From positions 1,984,001-2,048,000 of the forward strand of contig NZ_CP044065.1 of the NCBI RefSeq assembly GCF_008693385.1: a stretch of DNA of 64,000 bases, read 5' to 3'. This DNA comes from Cupriavidus pauculus. Lineage in GTDB: Bacteria > Pseudomonadota > Gammaproteobacteria > Burkholderiales > Burkholderiaceae. The notes under the pieces were generated by a model. It searched no databases and was not told the DNA's origin. It saw only the letters and a program-made list of their open reading frames with translations. How positions within the stretch are numbered: the stretch's first letter is position 1; the number at the start of each line of letters is the position of its first letter. The position numbers were made by a program, and so were the translations under genes. This document shows positions 4,148 to 51,606 of the stretch, one piece after another.

Positions 4148-5569
4148 TCAGGGCGTGGCGCCGGGGCGATTTTCCAGCCGATCCGGCACCCACTCCACCC
4201 GCCACCGTGGCGCCGGCGCGGCGTCCGGCCAGCGACGATGCTGTCCGAGCCCGGCCGCCAGCACCAGCGCCTCCCCCGCCCACAGCAGCGGCAGGCACTC
4301 GCGGCGCCACGCGGGCACGCCGGCTTCCTGATAGGCCTGCTTGAGCGCGCGCGCCGGGCCGCCCGGCCGCAGCACGATCCGCTCGCCGCCGGCGCGCGGC
4401 GTCACGCGCATCGGCGCCCGCAGCACGGCCTCGGGCACGCCGAACGTGTCGTCGCGCGTAAAACGCAAGACACCGCGCCAGTCCGGCACGGCAACCTCGG
4501 CCGCTTCCTGCCACGCAAACGCGAACACATCCGGCACCGCGGCAAGCGGCGGCCGGCAGGCCAGCACGCGGTCACGAAAACGATGGAGCACGAGCCCGTC
4601 GTGCGCGATGGCCGGCTCGCCACCGTCATGGTCGATCAGTTGCCTGCGCATATCCGCGAGCCGCGCCGTCGAAGGCGGCTGCGCGCCCAGGTCGCGCAGC
4701 CAGGTCCGCAGCACCGCGTCCGCCCGCGCGGGCGGCAACGCGCGCAATCCTGGCAGATCGAGTTCGCCGTAGGTATCGCCATCGCGCCCCGCCCGCACCA
4801 GCGGCGCGAGGTCGTGCTGCGTCATGGCGTCGAGCATGTCCGCGGCCTGCGCGATATGCGCGGCGGCCTGCACCACGTTCTCCTGCAATCCGGAAAACGC
4901 CGCCACGAGGGCAGGCAGATGGGCGCGCAGCGCATTGCGCGCATACCGCGTGTCGGTGTTGGAAGGATCCTCGATCCAGCGCAGCGCATGGCGCGCGCAA
5001 TATGCATCGATCTCCGCGCGCGGCATGTCGATCCACGGGCGCAGCAGCTGCACGTCGCCGGCGGCATCGAGCGCGCGCATTGCCGGCATCCCGGCGAGAC
5101 CCGCAACGCCGGCACCGCGGAACAGGCGCAGGAGCACCGTTTCCACCTGATCGTCGCGATGATGCGCGAACATCAGCACGCGGGCACCGGCCGCGCGGCA
5201 CATGCGGCCCAGCGCGTCGTAGCGCGCGCGTCGCGCGGCCGCCTCGATGCCCTCCCCGCCTAGCGCGGAGACCTGTACGCGTTCGGTATGGAACGGCACG
5301 CCCCACTCGCCGCACAGCGTCGCGCAGAACGCGTCCCATGCATCGGCTTCCGCCTGCAGGCCATGATGCACGTGCAATGCGACGACGGTCGCGCCGAGCC
5401 GCGCGGCGGCATCGCGCGCGGCGTGGAGCAACGCCACGGAGTCCCGGCCGCCGGACAGGGCCACGGCAATCGGCAAAGCGATGGGCGCAACATCGCTGGG
5501 AGCCGAAACAACAAAGGCCGCACTGGCTTGCACAGCCCGTGCGACCTTGTCGATCAGGTCCGGTGACAT
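4148..5569 (-). CDS. tilS: tRNA(Ile)-lysidine synthase
   Basis: Modifies C34 of the CAU-anticodon isoleucine tRNA to lysidine, using ATP and lysine; essential for decoding AUA. The protein is 473 residues. The PP-loop SGGRDS is at about residues 39-44, HVHHGLQ follows, and RYDALGRMCRAAGARVLMFAHHRDDQ covers the second conserved region. The C-terminus has the TilS substrate-binding domains (LRPGGPARALKQAYQEAGVPAWRRECLP region). I use the ATG at 5569 because more upstream starts would run into accA, whose stop is at 5598. The order accA-tilS-lysC is common in Burkholderiaceae. Confidence 0.94.
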   Translation of the reverse strand: MSPDLIDKVARAVQASAAFVVSAPSDVAPIALPIAVALSGGRDSVALLHAARDAAARLGATVVALHVHHGLQAEADAWDAFCATLCGEWGVPFHTERVQVSALGGEGIEAAARRARYDALGRMCRAAGARVLMFAHHRDDQVETVLLRLFRGAGVAGLAGMPAMRALDAAGDVQLLRPWIDMPRAEIDAYCARHALRWIEDPSNTDTRYARNALRAHLPALVAAFSGLQENVVQAAAHIAQAADMLDAMTQHDLAPLVRAGRDGDTYGELDLPGLRALPPARADAVLRTWLRDLGAQPPSTARLADMRRQLIDHDGGEPAIAHDGLVLHRFRDRVLACRPPLAAVPDVFAFAWQEAAEVAVPDWRGVLRFTRDDTFGVPEAVLRAPMRVTPRAGGERIVLRPGGPARALKQAYQEAGVPAWRRECLPLLWAGEALVLAAGLGQHRRWPDAAPAPRWRVEWVPDRLENRPGATP

Positions 5570-5597
5570 CGTGGATGTCACCGCGTTGGCGCCACCG

Positions 5598-6569
5598 TCA
5601 TTCGGTCGCGCCGGTTTCCTTGAACTTGCCATACGCGAGCAGACGCTCATGACGGCGCGCCTGCAGTTCCTTCACGCTCATGCCCTGGAACTGGCGCAGC
5701 GATTCGGCCAGCGAGCGCTTGAGCATCGTCGCCATGTTCTTCGGGTCGCGATGCGCGCCACCGAGCGGCTCGTTGATGATCTTGTCGATCAGGCCCAGCG
5801 CCTTCAGTCGATGCGCGGTCAGGCCCAGCGCCTCGGCGGCTTCCGGCGCCTTCGCGGCGGTCTTCCAGAGAATGGACGCGCAGCCTTCCGGCGAGATCAC
5901 CGCATACGTCGCGAACTGGAGCATCTGCACCACATCGCCGACGGCAATCGCGAGCGCGCCGCCCGAACCGCCTTCGCCGATGATCGTCGCGATCAGGGGC
6001 ACCTTCAGGCCGGCCATCACGTAGAGGTTATGGCCGATCGCTTCCGACTGGCCACGCTCTTCCGCGTCGATGCCGGGGAACGCGCCCGGCGTGTCCACGA
6101 ACGTGAAGATCGGCAGGCCGAACTTGTCGGCCAGCTCCATCAGGCGCTTGGCCTTGCGATAGCCCTCGGGCTTCGACATGCCGAAGTTGCGCAGCGCGCG
6201 TTCCTTCGTGTCGCGGCCCTTCTGGTGACCGATGACCATGCAGGCCTGGCCGTTGAAGCGCGCCAGACCGCCCACGATCGACAGATCGTCGGCAAACGCA
6301 CGGTCGCCGTGCAGTTCATGGAAGTCGGTAAAGATCTCCCGCACATAGTCCAGCGTATAGGGACGCTGGGGGTGACGGGCGATTTGCGCAACCTGCCACG
6401 GGGTCAGGTTGGCGTAGATATCCTTGGTGAGCTGCTGGCTCTTGCCAGCCAGCCGCGAGATCTCTTCGGAAATATCGACGGCCGAATCGTCCTGAACAAA
6501 ACGCAGTTCTTCGATCTTTGCCTCGAGCTCGGCAATCGGCTGTTCGAAATCCAGGAAGGTGGTTTTCAT
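5598..6569 (-). CDS. accA: Acetyl-CoA carboxylase carboxyltransferase subunit alpha
   Basis: Forms, with AccD, the carboxyltransferase that moves the carboxyl group from biotin to acetyl-CoA, giving malonyl-CoA for fatty acid synthesis. The 323-residue product has the normal family length. It has the N-terminal helical segment ([19 protein letters not shown]), then the crotonase-like fold with [30 protein letters not shown] and the oxyanion region [19 protein letters not shown] -10-like hexamer lies at 6605-6600 on the minus strand, about 30 nt before the ATG, but I see no good -35. Confidence 0.97.
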
Positions 6570-6693
6570 AGAAACGCGGACCTGTCTGTGAAGGGGCGCA
6601 TTCTACCGGAAAAAGAACCCGGTCCGACCGCCCTGAAAGTTGAACTTCCTACACTTCCCGGCAAATTTTCCCTGCCGGCCCTGCCAGACACTC

Positions 6694-7602
6694 CTAATAC
6701 GTCACTGGAACCGGGTCCAGACTGCGCCACATATACCACGTCGCTACCGTGCGCCACGGCTCCCAATTGGCGGCCACTTCACGTGCCTCGCTCCGGGTCA
6801 CGGGCTCGCCACTGAAGTAATTGGCCGAGATTGCATTGATCAGGCCAACGTCGTCGAGCGGCAGCACGTTCGGGCGCATCAGGTTGAACATCAGGAACAT
6901 TTCCGCCGTCCAGCGCCCGATACCGCGAATCTGGGTGAGCTCGGCGATGACGGCCTCGTCCTCCATCGCGGCCCACTCATTGACATGGACGCGTCCGGCC
7001 TTGAAATGTTCGGAAAGATCGATGATGTATTCCGCCTTGCGCCGCGACAATCCGCAACTGGCGAGCTGGTCGTTGCCGGCCTTGAGGAACTGCGCGGGCG
7101 TCAGCCGCGGGCACATCGTCACGAGCCTGTCCCACACGGCCTGCGCGGCCTTGACGGAGATCTGCTGGCCAACGACAGAGCGCGCGAGCGTGACGAACGG
7201 ATCGCCGCGCGAGATCAGATGCGCGGGGCCGTATGTCGGGATCATCTTGCGCAGGATGCGGTCCCGCTTCATCAGGTCCGCGCACGCTTCATCCCAGTAG
7301 GCGGGACGCACCGCATCGACGACCGTCTCCACCGGTAAGGGCATGCCCTCGGCTTCCGGCAACGCCGGCCTGGCGGCGCGGGCGCCCTTCGCGGCGGCGC
7401 CGCTCTTGCCGGTCGCCTTGTCGGTACGCTTCGCGGCCGCGGTCTTGGCGGCCTCTTTCCCGGTCACGGTCGCGGCAACCTTGGCGAGCACCTTCGCGGG
7501 CGCCTTGCCCTGCGCGCTGCCCGCCCCCTTGCCGGATGCCTTCGAGGCCGGCCTGCTCGCGGACTTGCCAGCTACCGTGGGCTTGCGCGCGGCAGCGTTC
7601 AA
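6694..7602 (-). CDS. alkA: DNA-3-methyladenine glycosylase (HhH-GPD) with Lys/Ala-rich tail
   Basis: Base-excision repair glycosylase for alkylated purines. The catalytic part has the [12 protein letters not shown] helix, the helix-hairpin-helix [11 protein letters not shown] and the following LPLDDVG with the catalytic Asp at about residue 250-251. The first 85 residues are a Lys/Ala/Gly/Thr-rich, histone H1-like tail with no fold of its own. I choose a TTG start at 7602: it has GGAGG five bases upstream and overlaps the cysS stop (TTGA). A GTG at 7614 is the alternative. The coupling to cysS suggests cotranscription. The family assignment is firm; the exact substrate range is not visible. 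Confidence 0.88.
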
Positions 7603-21530: not shown

Positions 21531-21776
21531 ATGAAGAAGTCTCTCCTGATCGCTTCCCTGCTGGCCGCTGTTGCTCTCGCCGCTTGCGGCAAGAAGGAAG
21601 AAGCTGCCGCTCCGGCCGCTGACACCGCAGCTCCGGCTGCTGCTGCTCCTGCCGCTGACGCATCGGCTCCCGCCGCTGCTCCGGCTGCTGACGCTTCGGC
21701 TCCCGCTGCTGAAGCCCCGGCTGCTGACGCATCGGCTCCGGCCGCTGACGCTTCGGCTCCCGCAGCCAAGCAGTAA
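21531..21776 (+). CDS. Small Ala/Pro-rich lipoprotein
   Basis: An 81-residue product: a short signal peptide ending in a lipobox (VALAAC, Cys19), a charged GKKEEA linker and about 55 residues made only of Ala, Pro, Asp, Ser with a few Glu and Thr. The tail is an imperfect repeat of APAADAS. Such sequences are extended and unfolded and may span part of the periplasm from the outer membrane. A clear AAAGGACG precedes the ATG, and a strong terminator follows, so this is a single-gene unit. Function unknown. Confidence 0.85.
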   Translation: MKKSLLIASLLAAVALAACGKKEEAAAPAADTAAPAAAAPAADASAPAAAPAADASAPAAEAPAADASAPAADASAPAAKQ

Positions 21777-47735: not shown

Positions 47736-50700
47736 CTACCGCGGCGCGGGTGGCGCGTCGCGCCAGTAACGCCTGACGTGCTGGCGGTAAGGAGTGACGT
47801 CATACGCGTCGCCCCGCGTGACGATGGTGATCGCACCGGTCTCGTCGGTGCGGTAGCGCTTGATATCCCGAGCCTCGTAACGCGCCCATACATCGGCCCG
47901 CGGATGGCCATAGCGGTTGCGATATCCCAGCTGAAACACCGCGATCTCGGGCGCGACCGCACGCAGTAGCGCCGCGCCCGACGATGTGCCGCTGCCATGA
48001 TGCGGCACCACGAGGATGTCCGCGCGCAGGGGCGCCCCTTCCTCCTCCGCGCGCCGCACCATGGCCCGCTCCTCGGCCACGCCGATATCACCGGTCAGCA
48101 GCACGCTGCGCCGCGCGGTGGCCACGCGCAGCACGCAGCTGCGCGCATTGCTCGCGACGCGGGGGTTGCCGGATTGCGTTGCCGGTGGGTGCAGGAACTC
48201 GAAATGCACGCCGTCCCATACCCACGCCATTCCCGCCTCGCATGGCGCCCATGACCGCGTCATCCACGCCTGCCCCGGCGGCGCGCCGGTCAGCCGCGCG
48301 GTCTCGACGTCCCGCACACCGCCCGTGTGGTCAGCGCCCTTGTCGCGGAGGGGCACTTGCCCCAGCGCCGAACCGGTCAGCCGCGCGGTCTCGACGTCCC
48401 GCACACCGCCCGTGTGATCGGCGCCCTTGTCGCGGAGGAACACTTGCCCCGGCGCCGAACCGGTCAGCCGCGCGGTCTCGACGTCTCGCACACCGCCCGT
48501 GTGATCGGCGCCCTTGTCGCGCAGGGACACTTGCCCCAGCGCCGAACCGGTCAGCCGCGCGGTCTCGACGTCCCGCACACCGCCCGCGTGGTCAGCGCCC
48601 TTGTCGCGGAGGGACACTTGCCCCAGCGCCGAACCGGTCAGCCGCGCGGTTTCGACGTCCCGCACACCGCCCGTGTGGTCAGCGCCCTTGTCGCGGAGGG
48701 ACACTTGCCCCAGTGACGAACCGGTCAGCCGCGCGGTCTCGACGTCCCGCACACCGCCCGCGTGGTCAGCGCCCTTGTCGCGGAGGTGCACTTGCCCCAG
48801 CGCCGAACCGGTCAGCCGCGCGGTCTCGACGTCTCGCACACCGCCCGTGTGATCGGCGCCCTTGTCGCGGAGGGACACTTGCCCCGCCGCTGAACCGGTC
48901 AGCCGCGCGGTCTCGACGTCCCGCACACCGCGCGTGTGATCGGCGCCCTTGTCGCGCAGGGACACTTGCCCCGGCGCTGAACCCGTCAGCCGCGCGGTCT
49001 CGGCACCGCGTGCATCGCCCGCCGGCATCGCATCGTCATCCCGCCTGCCGATTGGCACCACGGCCTCGATGTCCCGCACACCGCCCGCATGGTCGGCATC
49101 TTCGTGGCTGACGATCAGCCGGTCGAGCCGCCGCACGCCCGTGGCGCGCAGATACGGCACCACGACCTGCGCGCCCGCGCTGGTGCCCGACAGATAGCCC
49201 GGCCCGGTGTCGTACAGCAACGCGTGCGCTTGCGTTTCCACAAGCACCGCCGTGCCCTGCCCGATATCGAGCGCGGTCACGCGCATCTCGCCCTGCGCCA
49301 CGGGCGTGCCGCTGGCCAGGATCATCGGCGCCATCAGCAGTGCGCCATAGGCGCGCATGGCGCGGTCGCCATCGGGCAGTAGCAGCAGGAACACGCCGAT
49401 CGATGCGAGCCCCATGGCAAGCGGGCCTGCCTGCGCGGCTTCCCACACGGCCCACGCGGGCGCGGCCAGCCAGGCGAGCGCATCGGCTAGCCACGCCATG
49501 GCCTGATGCGCGACCGTCAGCGCGAGATGCGCCACCGGCGGCGGCGCCACGGCGCCGAGCAGCGACAGCGGCGTGACGACGATACTGACGATCGGGATCG
49601 CCACGGCGTTGGCGATGGCCGAGACCACCGATACCTGCCCGAACAGCAGCAGCGAAAACGGCACGAGCCCGATGGTCACGGCCCACTGTACGCGCGCTGC
49701 GCTCACGAGGGCTGCGCGCCAACGCAACAGCCGCCGCTGCAGTGCCGACGGCTCCTCCGCCAGGTCGTCCGCCGCAACAGCCTCCGCCTCGCTCCCGACA
49801 CCCCTGGCCGCGCGGGCCGCCGCGCCATGGGGCTTGCGATTCGCCGCGCCGCCGGCGCCCAGCAAGCCGCCGAACAGGCGCGCCACTGCATGGGCGCCGG
49901 CACGCTTCGGCCCGCCGGACATGCTGGCGGTCGCATGAGCGTGGCTACGTTTCGGCCCGTCGTTCGACGTGCCACCCACCGCGGAGTCCGGCGCGCGCGG
50001 CGCGGCACGCGCCACGTCATGCGATGCGCGACTTGCCGAGCCGTGCTGGCCCGGCAAGCCGCCGGACATGCTGGGCATCGCATGCGCGCCGGTACGCTTC
50101 GGCGCGGCTTCGGGGGTCGCTTCGGGCGACAGGCGGCGGCGCCGCGTTGCCGGCCTCGCTGTGGCGGCCGGCTCGGGTCGCGCTGCGGCGAGGAAGATCA
50201 CGGCCACGGCGCCGAACGAGAGCCAGAACCCCGGGGCCATGACCGCCCATGGGTCGATGACGACGGCAACGGCGGCGGCCCATGTCAGCACCAGCGTGGC
50301 CGGCGGCGCGCGGCCGCTCCAGAGTGCCACGGCCGCGACGGTCAGCATCGCCACCGTGCGCATGGCGGGAATCTGCATGCCCGCGATCAGGCCATATGCA
50401 AGCGCGGTCGCCACGGCGGCGACCAGTGCCGCCTGCCGCGCGGGCCAGCACAATGGCAACGGGCGCCGCAACCTGCGGCCAAGGCCGAACGAATGGCGCC
50501 AAAGCCAGTGCACGATCCCGCCGACCGCGCCCGACAGCATCGTGATATGCAGGCCCGAGATGCTCACCAGATGCGAGATGCCGGTGCGCCGGAATATCTC
50601 CCAGTCCGCCTGGGCGATGCCCCGCTGGTCGCCGATGGCCAACGCCACGAGCACGCTGCCGAGCCGCGCGTCGGCGGGCATGGCCGCGTGCATGCGGTCG

Positions 50701-51398
50701 CGCAGTGCGGCACGCCAGCGGGCGATGCGGGCGCCATCGCCGGGCATCGGGCCCGCGCGCGCGGCACGCACGTGGCCGGTGGCGCCGATGCCTTCGCTCA
50801 GGAGCCAGTATGCGTAGTCGAAACCATGCGGATTGGCGAGCCCGCGTGGGCGCTTGAGGCGGACGGTCAGTTGCCAGCGTTGGCCGGGGACGAGGGGGAT
50901 TGGGGGATTGCGCCAGGTGAGCAGCACGCGGGGCGGGACCCGCCCTTCGGGCAAGAGCGCACCGAGCGCACCGGGCGCCGCTGGCGTGGCAAGCGCGTCG
51001 TATGCGCCGTGCGTGGCGGGCGCGGTATCCGGAGCGAAGAGGAAGCGCGTGCCGTGCGCGGCCACATCCGGCAGCCCCGCGACTTCGCCCGTGATGACGA
51101 GGTTCTGGCCGGCCAGTGACTCCGGCAGCCAATCCGCCATGCGCACCGCCGCGCGCCAGTTGGCCCATGCCGCGCCCAGCACGAGGGCCAGCACGGTGGC
51201 CATCGCGAGCGGGCATAGCGACCGCCTCGGCCCGCGCGCCTGCACGGACTGCGCCATCACGCGCCCCTTGAAGCGCCACCCTAGCGCCCACACCAACACC
51301 CCCGCCATCGCCCCCACATACCCGTGCCACGACGCCAGCGCCCCCTGCTGCTGCAGCCACCAGCACCCAGCCACGAATGCCAGCAGGCAAGCACGCAT
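47736..51398 (-). CDS. comEC: DNA uptake protein ComEC/Rec2 with repeat insertion
   Basis: The inner-membrane channel that takes up single-stranded DNA during natural transformation. 1220 residues, far above the usual 750-850. Order: N-terminal membrane and DUF4131 part, the Competence domain (ISGLHITMLSG near residue 280), and a metallo-beta-lactamase domain with SHEDADHAGG (near 770), TGDIG and VPHHGSGTSSG. The extra length comes from two insertions: a Pro/Ala/His-rich segment at about 408-546 and a tandem repeat of 29 residues at about 796-1038. The frame is unbroken. The ATG at 51398 has AAGGAGAGG just upstream; an in-frame extension to 51509 does not. Activity is likely but not certain because the repeats sit between the first and later metal motifs. 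Confidence 0.9.
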   Translation of the reverse strand: MRACLLAFVAGCWWLQQQGALASWHGYVGAMAGVLVWALGWRFKGRVMAQSVQARGPRRSLCPLAMATVLALVLGAAWANWRAAVRMADWLPESLAGQNLVITGEVAGLPDVAAHGTRFLFAPDTAPATHGAYDALATPAAPGALGALLPEGRVPPRVLLTWRNPPIPLVPGQRWQLTVRLKRPRGLANPHGFDYAYWLLSEGIGATGHVRAARAGPMPGDGARIARWRAALRDRMHAAMPADARLGSVLVALAIGDQRGIAQADWEIFRRTGISHLVSISGLHITMLSGAVGGIVHWLWRHSFGLGRRLRRPLPLCWPARQAALVAAVATALAYGLIAGMQIPAMRTVAMLTVAAVALWSGRAPPATLVLTWAAAVAVVIDPWAVMAPGFWLSFGAVAVIFLAAARPEPAATARPATRRRRLSPEATPEAAPKRTGAHAMPSMSGGLPGQHGSASRASHDVARAAPRAPDSAVGGTSNDGPKRSHAHATASMSGGPKRAGAHAVARLFGGLLGAGGAANRKPHGAAARAARGVGSEAEAVAADDLAEEPSALQRRLLRWRAALVSAARVQWAVTIGLVPFSLLLFGQVSVVSAIANAVAIPIVSIVVTPLSLLGAVAPPPVAHLALTVAHQAMAWLADALAWLAAPAWAVWEAAQAGPLAMGLASIGVFLLLLPDGDRAMRAYGALLMAPMILASGTPVAQGEMRVTALDIGQGTAVLVETQAHALLYDTGPGYLSGTSAGAQVVVPYLRATGVRRLDRLIVSHEDADHAGGVRDIEAVVPIGRRDDDAMPAGDARGAETARLTGSAPGQVSLRDKGADHTRGVRDVETARLTGSAAGQVSLRDKGADHTGGVRDVETARLTGSALGQVHLRDKGADHAGGVRDVETARLTGSSLGQVSLRDKGADHTGGVRDVETARLTGSALGQVSLRDKGADHAGGVRDVETARLTGSALGQVSLRDKGADHTGGVRDVETARLTGSAPGQVFLRDKGADHTGGVRDVETARLTGSALGQVPLRDKGADHTGGVRDVETARLTGAPPGQAWMTRSWAPCEAGMAWVWDGVHFEFLHPPATQSGNPRVASNARSCVLRVATARRSVLLTGDIGVAEERAMVRRAEEEGAPLRADILVVPHHGSGTSSGAALLRAVAPEIAVFQLGYRNRYGHPRADVWARYEARDIKRYRTDETGAITIVTRGDAYDVTPYRQHVRRYWRDAPPAPR
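48283..49020. repeat. 87-bp coding minisatellite in comEC
   Basis: A tandem array with exact period 87 bp (29 codons). Starts of the same short motif (ACGTC/ACGTT then CGCACACCG) occur at 48307, 48394, 48481, 48568, 48655, 48742, 48829 and 48916, with a degenerate copy at 49003. Copies differ by only a few bases. Each encodes VETARLTGS ... LRDKGADH plus GGVRD. The native metal-binding stretch of the enzyme at 49069-49108 shares about 35 nearly identical bases with the unit, so the array probably came from it. Because the unit is a multiple of three, changes in copy number keep the frame. Confidence 0.97.
49870..50108. repeat. Imperfect 45-bp repeats in the first comEC insertion
   Basis: Three related segments at about 49870-49918, 49914-49960 and 50063-50108, encoding KR-AGAHAVARLFGG, KRSHAHATASMSGG and KRTGAHAMPSMSGG types. 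They lie in a Pro/Ala-rich region between transmembrane parts of ComEC and add about 130 residues. They are less regular than the 87-bp array and separated by unrelated bases. Confidence 0.7.
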
Positions 51399-51606
51399 CG
51401 GCCTCTCCTTCGTCGAACGGAAAAGCCGCGTTGTAACGCGAAAACGCCGAAGAAAACGTGTCCAGGCGTTGCGCGAACGTGGCGAATTGATTCCGCCGCG
51501 TTTACACACGCAGCCGAAGAATTGCCAGGGCCTTTACGCGCGAAACGATATCGTCTCCGTCCCAATGTCGCGGCCATGCACCCGCGCATTTCCGTGGAGA
51601 TATTCA

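Follow-up and report, generated by a model that had tools for sequence, protein, structure and literature searches.

An in-frame 87-bp coding minisatellite in comEC of Cupriavidus pauculus, derived from the gene's own motif II segment

A 64,000-nucleotide stretch of the Cupriavidus pauculus genome (contig NZ_CP044065.1, positions 1,984,001 to 2,048,000; hereafter the window) was found to carry a tandem array within comEC. The array occupies window positions 48252-49034 on the minus strand, runs in the comEC reading frame and consists of eight 87-bp units and a ninth, half-decayed one. Its head-to-tail units, whose period is a multiple of three, lie inside a coding sequence (CDS), which makes it an in-frame coding minisatellite, and it was derived from comEC's own motif II segment. 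We consider it probable that this own-segment minisatellite grew by misaligned recombination and that the insert of about 250 residues is tolerated as near-neutral bulk. The relevant features, in window coordinates, are as follows.

47736 to 51398, minus strand: comEC CDS, 1220 aa; start (MRACLLAFVAGCWW) assigned from relatives, the longest open reading frame (ORF) beginning at 51509.
49674 to 50228, minus strand: second expanded loop, FWLSF to QWAVT (anchors and interior), with 175 aa between the anchors versus a median of 35; low complexity, no clean tandem array.
49089 to 49106, minus strand: native motif II, HEDADH, with putative nuclease metal ligands analogous to H598/D600/D602/H603 in the Moorella glycerini protein (PMC12455585).
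49065 to 49100, minus strand: native DADHAGGVRDIE, from which the first part of the unit derives.
48948 to 49034, minus strand: copy -1, 29 codons in register, the first 12 decayed and the last 17 unit-like.
48339 to 48947, minus strand: copies 0 to 6, seven 87-bp units with 93.6% mean pairwise identity.
48252 to 48338, minus strand: copy 7, 18 unit-like codons followed by native downstream APPGQAWMTRS.
48081 to 48101, minus strand: LLTGDIG, beyond the array and intact, with the likely metal-binding Asp of motif IV (analogy, PMC12455585).
47979 to 48005, minus strand: PHHGSGTSS, intact, with the likely active-site His and Ser (analogy, PMC12455585).
47901 to 47918, minus strand: NRYGHP, intact, likely counterpart of loop 2 (R688, F689 and F691 in Legionella ComEC), judged from PMC12455585.

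Three Pfam families, Competence, DUF4131 (OB) and Lactamase_B, matched the protein above their cut-offs (171.4, 101.2 and 45.9 bits, respectively), and the nuclease motifs HxDxDH, LLTGD and PHHGS together with the NR[YF]xxP loop were present at the aligned columns. By these domains and motifs, it is a predicted ComEC/Rec2 DNA-uptake protein. ComEC is the channel required by competent bacteria (PMC12455585). In a set of 51 competent strains its length ranged from 417 to 872 aa (PMC6299819), compared with 1220 aa here. The protein shares the three Pfam domains, the motifs and the nuclease fold with the solved ComEC/Rec2 chains (9vcb, 9vcf, 9vc9, 9vc6 and 30bt; nuclease domain 9ic4) but is about 250 residues longer than they are between the motif II helix and the strand that follows.

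The presence of the array in comEC was confirmed. Tandem Repeats Finder reported a match at 48271-49002 with a period of 87, 8.4 copies, 93% matches, no indels and a score of 1233. The unit encodes 29 residues (consensus GADHTGGVRDVETARLTGSALGQVSLRDK), and its eight copies run from 48947 down to 48252 in exact 29-codon steps, each of copies 0-6 showing 2-5 differences from the consensus. Of the tandem arrays found in a scan of 1.26 Mb of this genome (array sample of sixty 20-kb stretches, 1.2 Mb), the comEC array scored highest, the runner-up reaching 449. A search of the 7.06-Mb assembly with the unit, with scores computed for 40 of the 70 first-look candidates, gave 10 matches, every one within this comEC. 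Given the distance between the scores of 1233 and 449 and the confinement of all unit matches to comEC, the array is not a product of chance. Tandem repeats are a known source of misassembly (PMC6868369), but the copies carry distinct substitutions, an edge copy is decayed and the assembly consists of only three contigs, so that an assembly artefact, in the array or in its copy number, is scarcely credible. A mobile repeat family was rejected, as all ten genome matches lay inside comEC and a protein search with 7991 scored candidates gave only this protein. A foreign origin of the 63 bases surrounding the decayed copy was likewise rejected, the eight other genome matches being short, with E values of 0.1 or worse. 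An overlapping gene on the plus strand was set aside: a 415-codon open frame there crosses the array, and the other four frames contain stops, but with a period of 87 any stop-free frame of the unit stays open.

The origin of the unit was traced by alignment to the ancestral loop as it stands in Cupriavidus plantarum (L055), DADHAGGVRDIEAAVPVALRLTSAPPGQPWMSAAWDLCEAG. The last copy, which continues into the native downstream sequence APPGQAWMTRSW, aligned together with that sequence over the full length of the C. plantarum loop with one five-codon gap. In this alignment, 23 of the 29 unit codons correspond to a segment of the gene itself that runs from the end of motif II through the following helix into the next strand, of which the unit lacks five codons. 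The unit thus extends beyond the metal-binding stretch and includes the helix and next strand (ARLTG..GQ). Because the units retain ADH without the preceding HxD, it is unlikely that the additional potential metal sites would form a second catalytic site. In copy -1, the 12 decayed codons agreed with the DNA of native DADHAGGVRDIE in 22 of 36 bases, the best value among 1,246 in-frame comEC windows (self excepted). Five unrelated in-frame windows scored 20-21 and one out-of-frame window 23; because unrelated windows score this high, the assignment of copy -1 leans on its exact 29-codon register too.

An earlier, sequence-only reading of this DNA had recognized comEC with an in-frame array of eight units at exact 87-base spacing plus a degenerate one. 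The Pfam domains, the CDS at 47736-51398, the per-copy table and Tandem Repeats Finder all agree with it, and its derivation of the unit from comEC's own motif II stretch was borne out by the alignment to the native C. plantarum loop. Several details had to be revised. The native stretch, placed by that reading at 49069-49108, is DADHAGGVRDIE at 49065-49100. The unit was described as carrying a near-copy of the active-site stretch, which is correct for the motif II end but leaves out the following helix, the strand and the five-codon gap. Duplication within the gene stands; the 22 codons thought to have been lost in it, however, are partly the decayed ninth copy at 48948-49034.

A comparison of ComEC sequences revealed 285 residues between motif II and the W.WDG block here versus 36-53 in 159 other sequences; both anchors were present in 161 of 180 sequences, two of which were the window's own, and near-duplicates were included. 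Compared with the nearest species, the protein has 249 more residues in this interval (285 vs 36), or about 8.6 units, so that the large in-frame gain proposed earlier holds while its figure of about 240 residues becomes 249. A protein search with the array region, in which 7991 candidates were scored, returned this protein alone, and the array is absent from the relatives measured. No second strain appeared in the genome sets searched, which hold one genome per species, and one of the searches may omit near records.

Other ComEC loops have grown in the nearest relatives. The comEC frames were extracted from 60 of 68 loci (L009-L076), and a tree of 30 hand-chosen rows grouped the window with C. 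plantarum (96/96), then with C. pampae (100/99) and then with P0003 and P0004, the latter labelled unclassified Cupriavidus (100/100). Four of these five sequences have some grown ComEC loop, not always the same one. The loop between LLTGDI and PHHGS has 110 aa in C. plantarum and 102 aa in P0004 against a median of 24. The FWLSF-QW loop, with a median of 35 aa, reaches 212 in C. plantarum, 175 in the window and 86 in C. pampae. In P0003, none of the three measured loops is lengthened. In C. plantarum, the in-frame arrays have units of 12 bp (AQDV, 14.4 copies), 147 bp (1.9 copies) and 24 bp (5.7 copies) at positions 6661-6833, 5404-5679 and 5162-5298 of its locus, respectively, and three more arrays lie in the 4-kb comEC flanks. 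The C. pampae protein contains an SA-rich stretch. Between C. pampae (L039) and the near-identical P0002, there are nine substitutions and a difference of two SA dipeptides in the N-terminal repeat, and this short repeat is the only place where a comEC copy-number difference was seen. Loop 1 lengths were excluded, as the search pattern misfired on Ralstonia rows. Another species of the genus (L038) has a GSAS/GSDR repeat after YDTGPAYG, in the apparent counterpart of loop 1.

The array is young or homogenized. The mean pairwise synonymous difference among copies 0-6 is 0.10, whereas comEC differs from its counterparts in the two nearest named species, C. plantarum and C. pampae, by a synonymous divergence (dS) of 0.63-0.89. 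As the divergence among the copies is six to eight times lower, the array or its last homogenization is younger than the species split, in agreement with the recent expansion or homogenization that the sequence-only reading had proposed from the likeness of the copies. Linked variants (GCC GAT / GCT GAC) divide copies 0, 1, 5 and 6 from copies 2, 3, 4 and 7, and the edge copies are the most diverged, a pattern that multi-unit duplication with homogenization in the middle would leave. Hairpin-driven slippage was tried as a route and rejected, because the predicted single-strand folding of three units was no stronger than that of shuffled sequences (z +0.93).

The most probable course of events would begin with tandem duplication of a comEC segment that reaches from the end of motif II across the helix behind it to the next strand, with five codons dropped. 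Misaligned recombination would then have raised the number to about nine in-frame copies, those in the middle being the most homogenized, and would have placed some 250 residues in the periplasmic nuclease domain at a length-tolerant helix end, away from the catalytic loops. In the AlphaFold2 model, the nuclease fold is retained and the array follows the helix after motif II, outside the metal-binding loop; the model alignment (A1) retained one row, L063, that is out of frame at its end. From this topology, the array should lie at the end of the helix away from the active site. The predicted position is at odds with the earlier suggestion that the array lengthens the metal-binding loop. Outside the insert, the protein folds in the model and is subject to selection; the insert is therefore most probably tolerated without being used. 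The array is best read as a conspicuous instance of a common process, the in-frame expansion of a loop through recombination.

Several observations weigh against this interpretation. No source was traced for the last six unit codons (VSLRDK), where the native tail has AWMTRS. Synonymous and nonsynonymous variants within the copies number 7 and 8, respectively (ratio 0.48, p 0.16), a result that speaks neither for nor against constraint on the repeat sequence. One assembly of one strain is the basis, so that an error in copy number keeps a small probability and the proposed copy-number instability is putative. Moreover, AlphaFold2 predicted two strands per unit in copies 0-5 (RDVETARLT and GQVSLRD), with ten-residue means of the predicted local distance difference test (pLDDT) of 65-79. 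As a control, an unused frame on the opposite strand of the array DNA was folded (147 aa, five 29-residue repeats) and gave a pLDDT of 42 with helices and no solenoid, which indicates that the repetition of this DNA alone does not yield strand structure; the control was predicted from a single sequence, is shorter than the array and lacks a folded domain, and the comparison is therefore unequal.

These predictions would fit units that form an ordered, beta-rich arm (a beta-solenoid) on the nuclease domain, bind DNA or a partner and are selected, all the more as inserted substrate-binding domains occur in other metallo-beta-lactamase nucleases (PMC12455585). However, the pLDDT fell to 39-58 over the last two copies, copy 6 having one predicted strand and copy 7 none. 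For random perfect repeats, AlphaFold2 is also reported to predict, with confidence, beta-solenoids that are unrealistic and in many cases have charges stacked on one another (PMC11795689); whichever face of the strand RDVETARLT is taken, charges would be stacked there as well. A known repeat domain was rejected, since the two Pfam rows obtained for the array are both below their cut-offs. Searches with the whole model gave, by title, nearly all metallo-beta-lactamase folds among the best 50 of 518 rows and 50 further entries; no solenoid entry was among these listed matches, which is uninformative because one domain can fill such a list. The predicted strand structure is somewhat more likely to be an artefact than a real fold, and we regard a selected arm as unlikely.

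The array might instead mark a decaying gene that no longer serves uptake. Two families served to probe the competence genes: dprA was found above the cut-off in the genome, although the ComEA family matched only below it (43 and 31 bits vs 53.1). However, the nuclease motifs are preserved and no stop interrupts the frame of 1220 codons. Over species-level divergence, omega, a time-averaged measure blind to very recent loss, lies at 0.16-0.20. Purifying selection acts on comEC, and decay is a very improbable explanation.

Growth of different loops in C. plantarum, P0004 and the window, together with the SA dipeptide difference between L039 and P0002, could also suggest that comEC in this clade is a contingency locus, in which several loop arrays vary in copy number and so tune the DNA uptake of different cells. 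Across 16 loci and the window, arrays with a score of at least 100 numbered 5 in 44.6 kb of comEC versus 3 in 130.5 kb of flanks (p 0.03). However, three of the five comEC arrays and all three flank arrays come from C. plantarum, and arrays are common genome-wide, with densities per Mb of 16.7 in our sample of this genome, 27.5 in C. plantarum and 10 in G003. Since the excess in comEC is slight against this background, a ComEC-specific account is weakened, and comEC as a repeat hot spot is weakly supported. Furthermore, the units keep the frame and provide no on/off switch, and no phenotype is known. A contingency locus therefore has a slim chance of being correct. A slimmer one was given to the combined view that comEC of this clade undergoes diversifying multi-loop length evolution, in which a new ordered arm made here from the gene's own active-site segment would tune uptake reversibly through its length.

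Among known systems, the array resembles the coding tandem repeats, or variable-number tandem repeats (VNTRs), of mycobacterial pe/ppe genes (PMC12817950) in lying inside a CDS and keeping the frame. Unlike those VNTRs, it lies in the core fold of a conserved transport nuclease and comes from a segment of that fold, and its copy number is taken from one assembly. ComEC of C. plantarum is similar as a sister sequence with in-frame loop arrays but differs in that its 12-, 24- and 147-bp units lie in other loops and its motif II loop has an ordinary 36 aa. No array in comEC appeared among the matches listed, by title and opening of the abstract, for literature on comEC repeats or VNTRs, Cupriavidus and natural transformation, and the words "repeat" and "insertion" have zero occurrences in the main text of PMC6299819.

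A young array derived from, and located in, a conserved nuclease fold would represent a natural insertion experiment in which the domain accepts 250 extra residues at this place, and its sequence-tagged copies offer material for studying how coding minisatellites grow. If the length matters for uptake, the array would provide a new way of varying transformability; if it does not, the position would be an insertion-tolerant site useful for tagging a hard-to-handle protein.

Further arrays were noted outside comEC. A GC-rich tandem repeat of 21-69 bp lies at 21603-21760 of the window, with only two start-to-stop ORFs of at least 120 aa over it, both short and unconvincing. Elsewhere in the same genome (C1:1438921-1439183; 18921-19183 of L115), a 17-bp array of 15.5 copies, with a period that is not a multiple of three, is crossed by a 395-codon stop-to-stop frame. 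In another genome (G027; 6247-7846 of L165), arrays of 93-, 99- and 111-bp units lie in a single stop-to-stop frame of 1512 codons.
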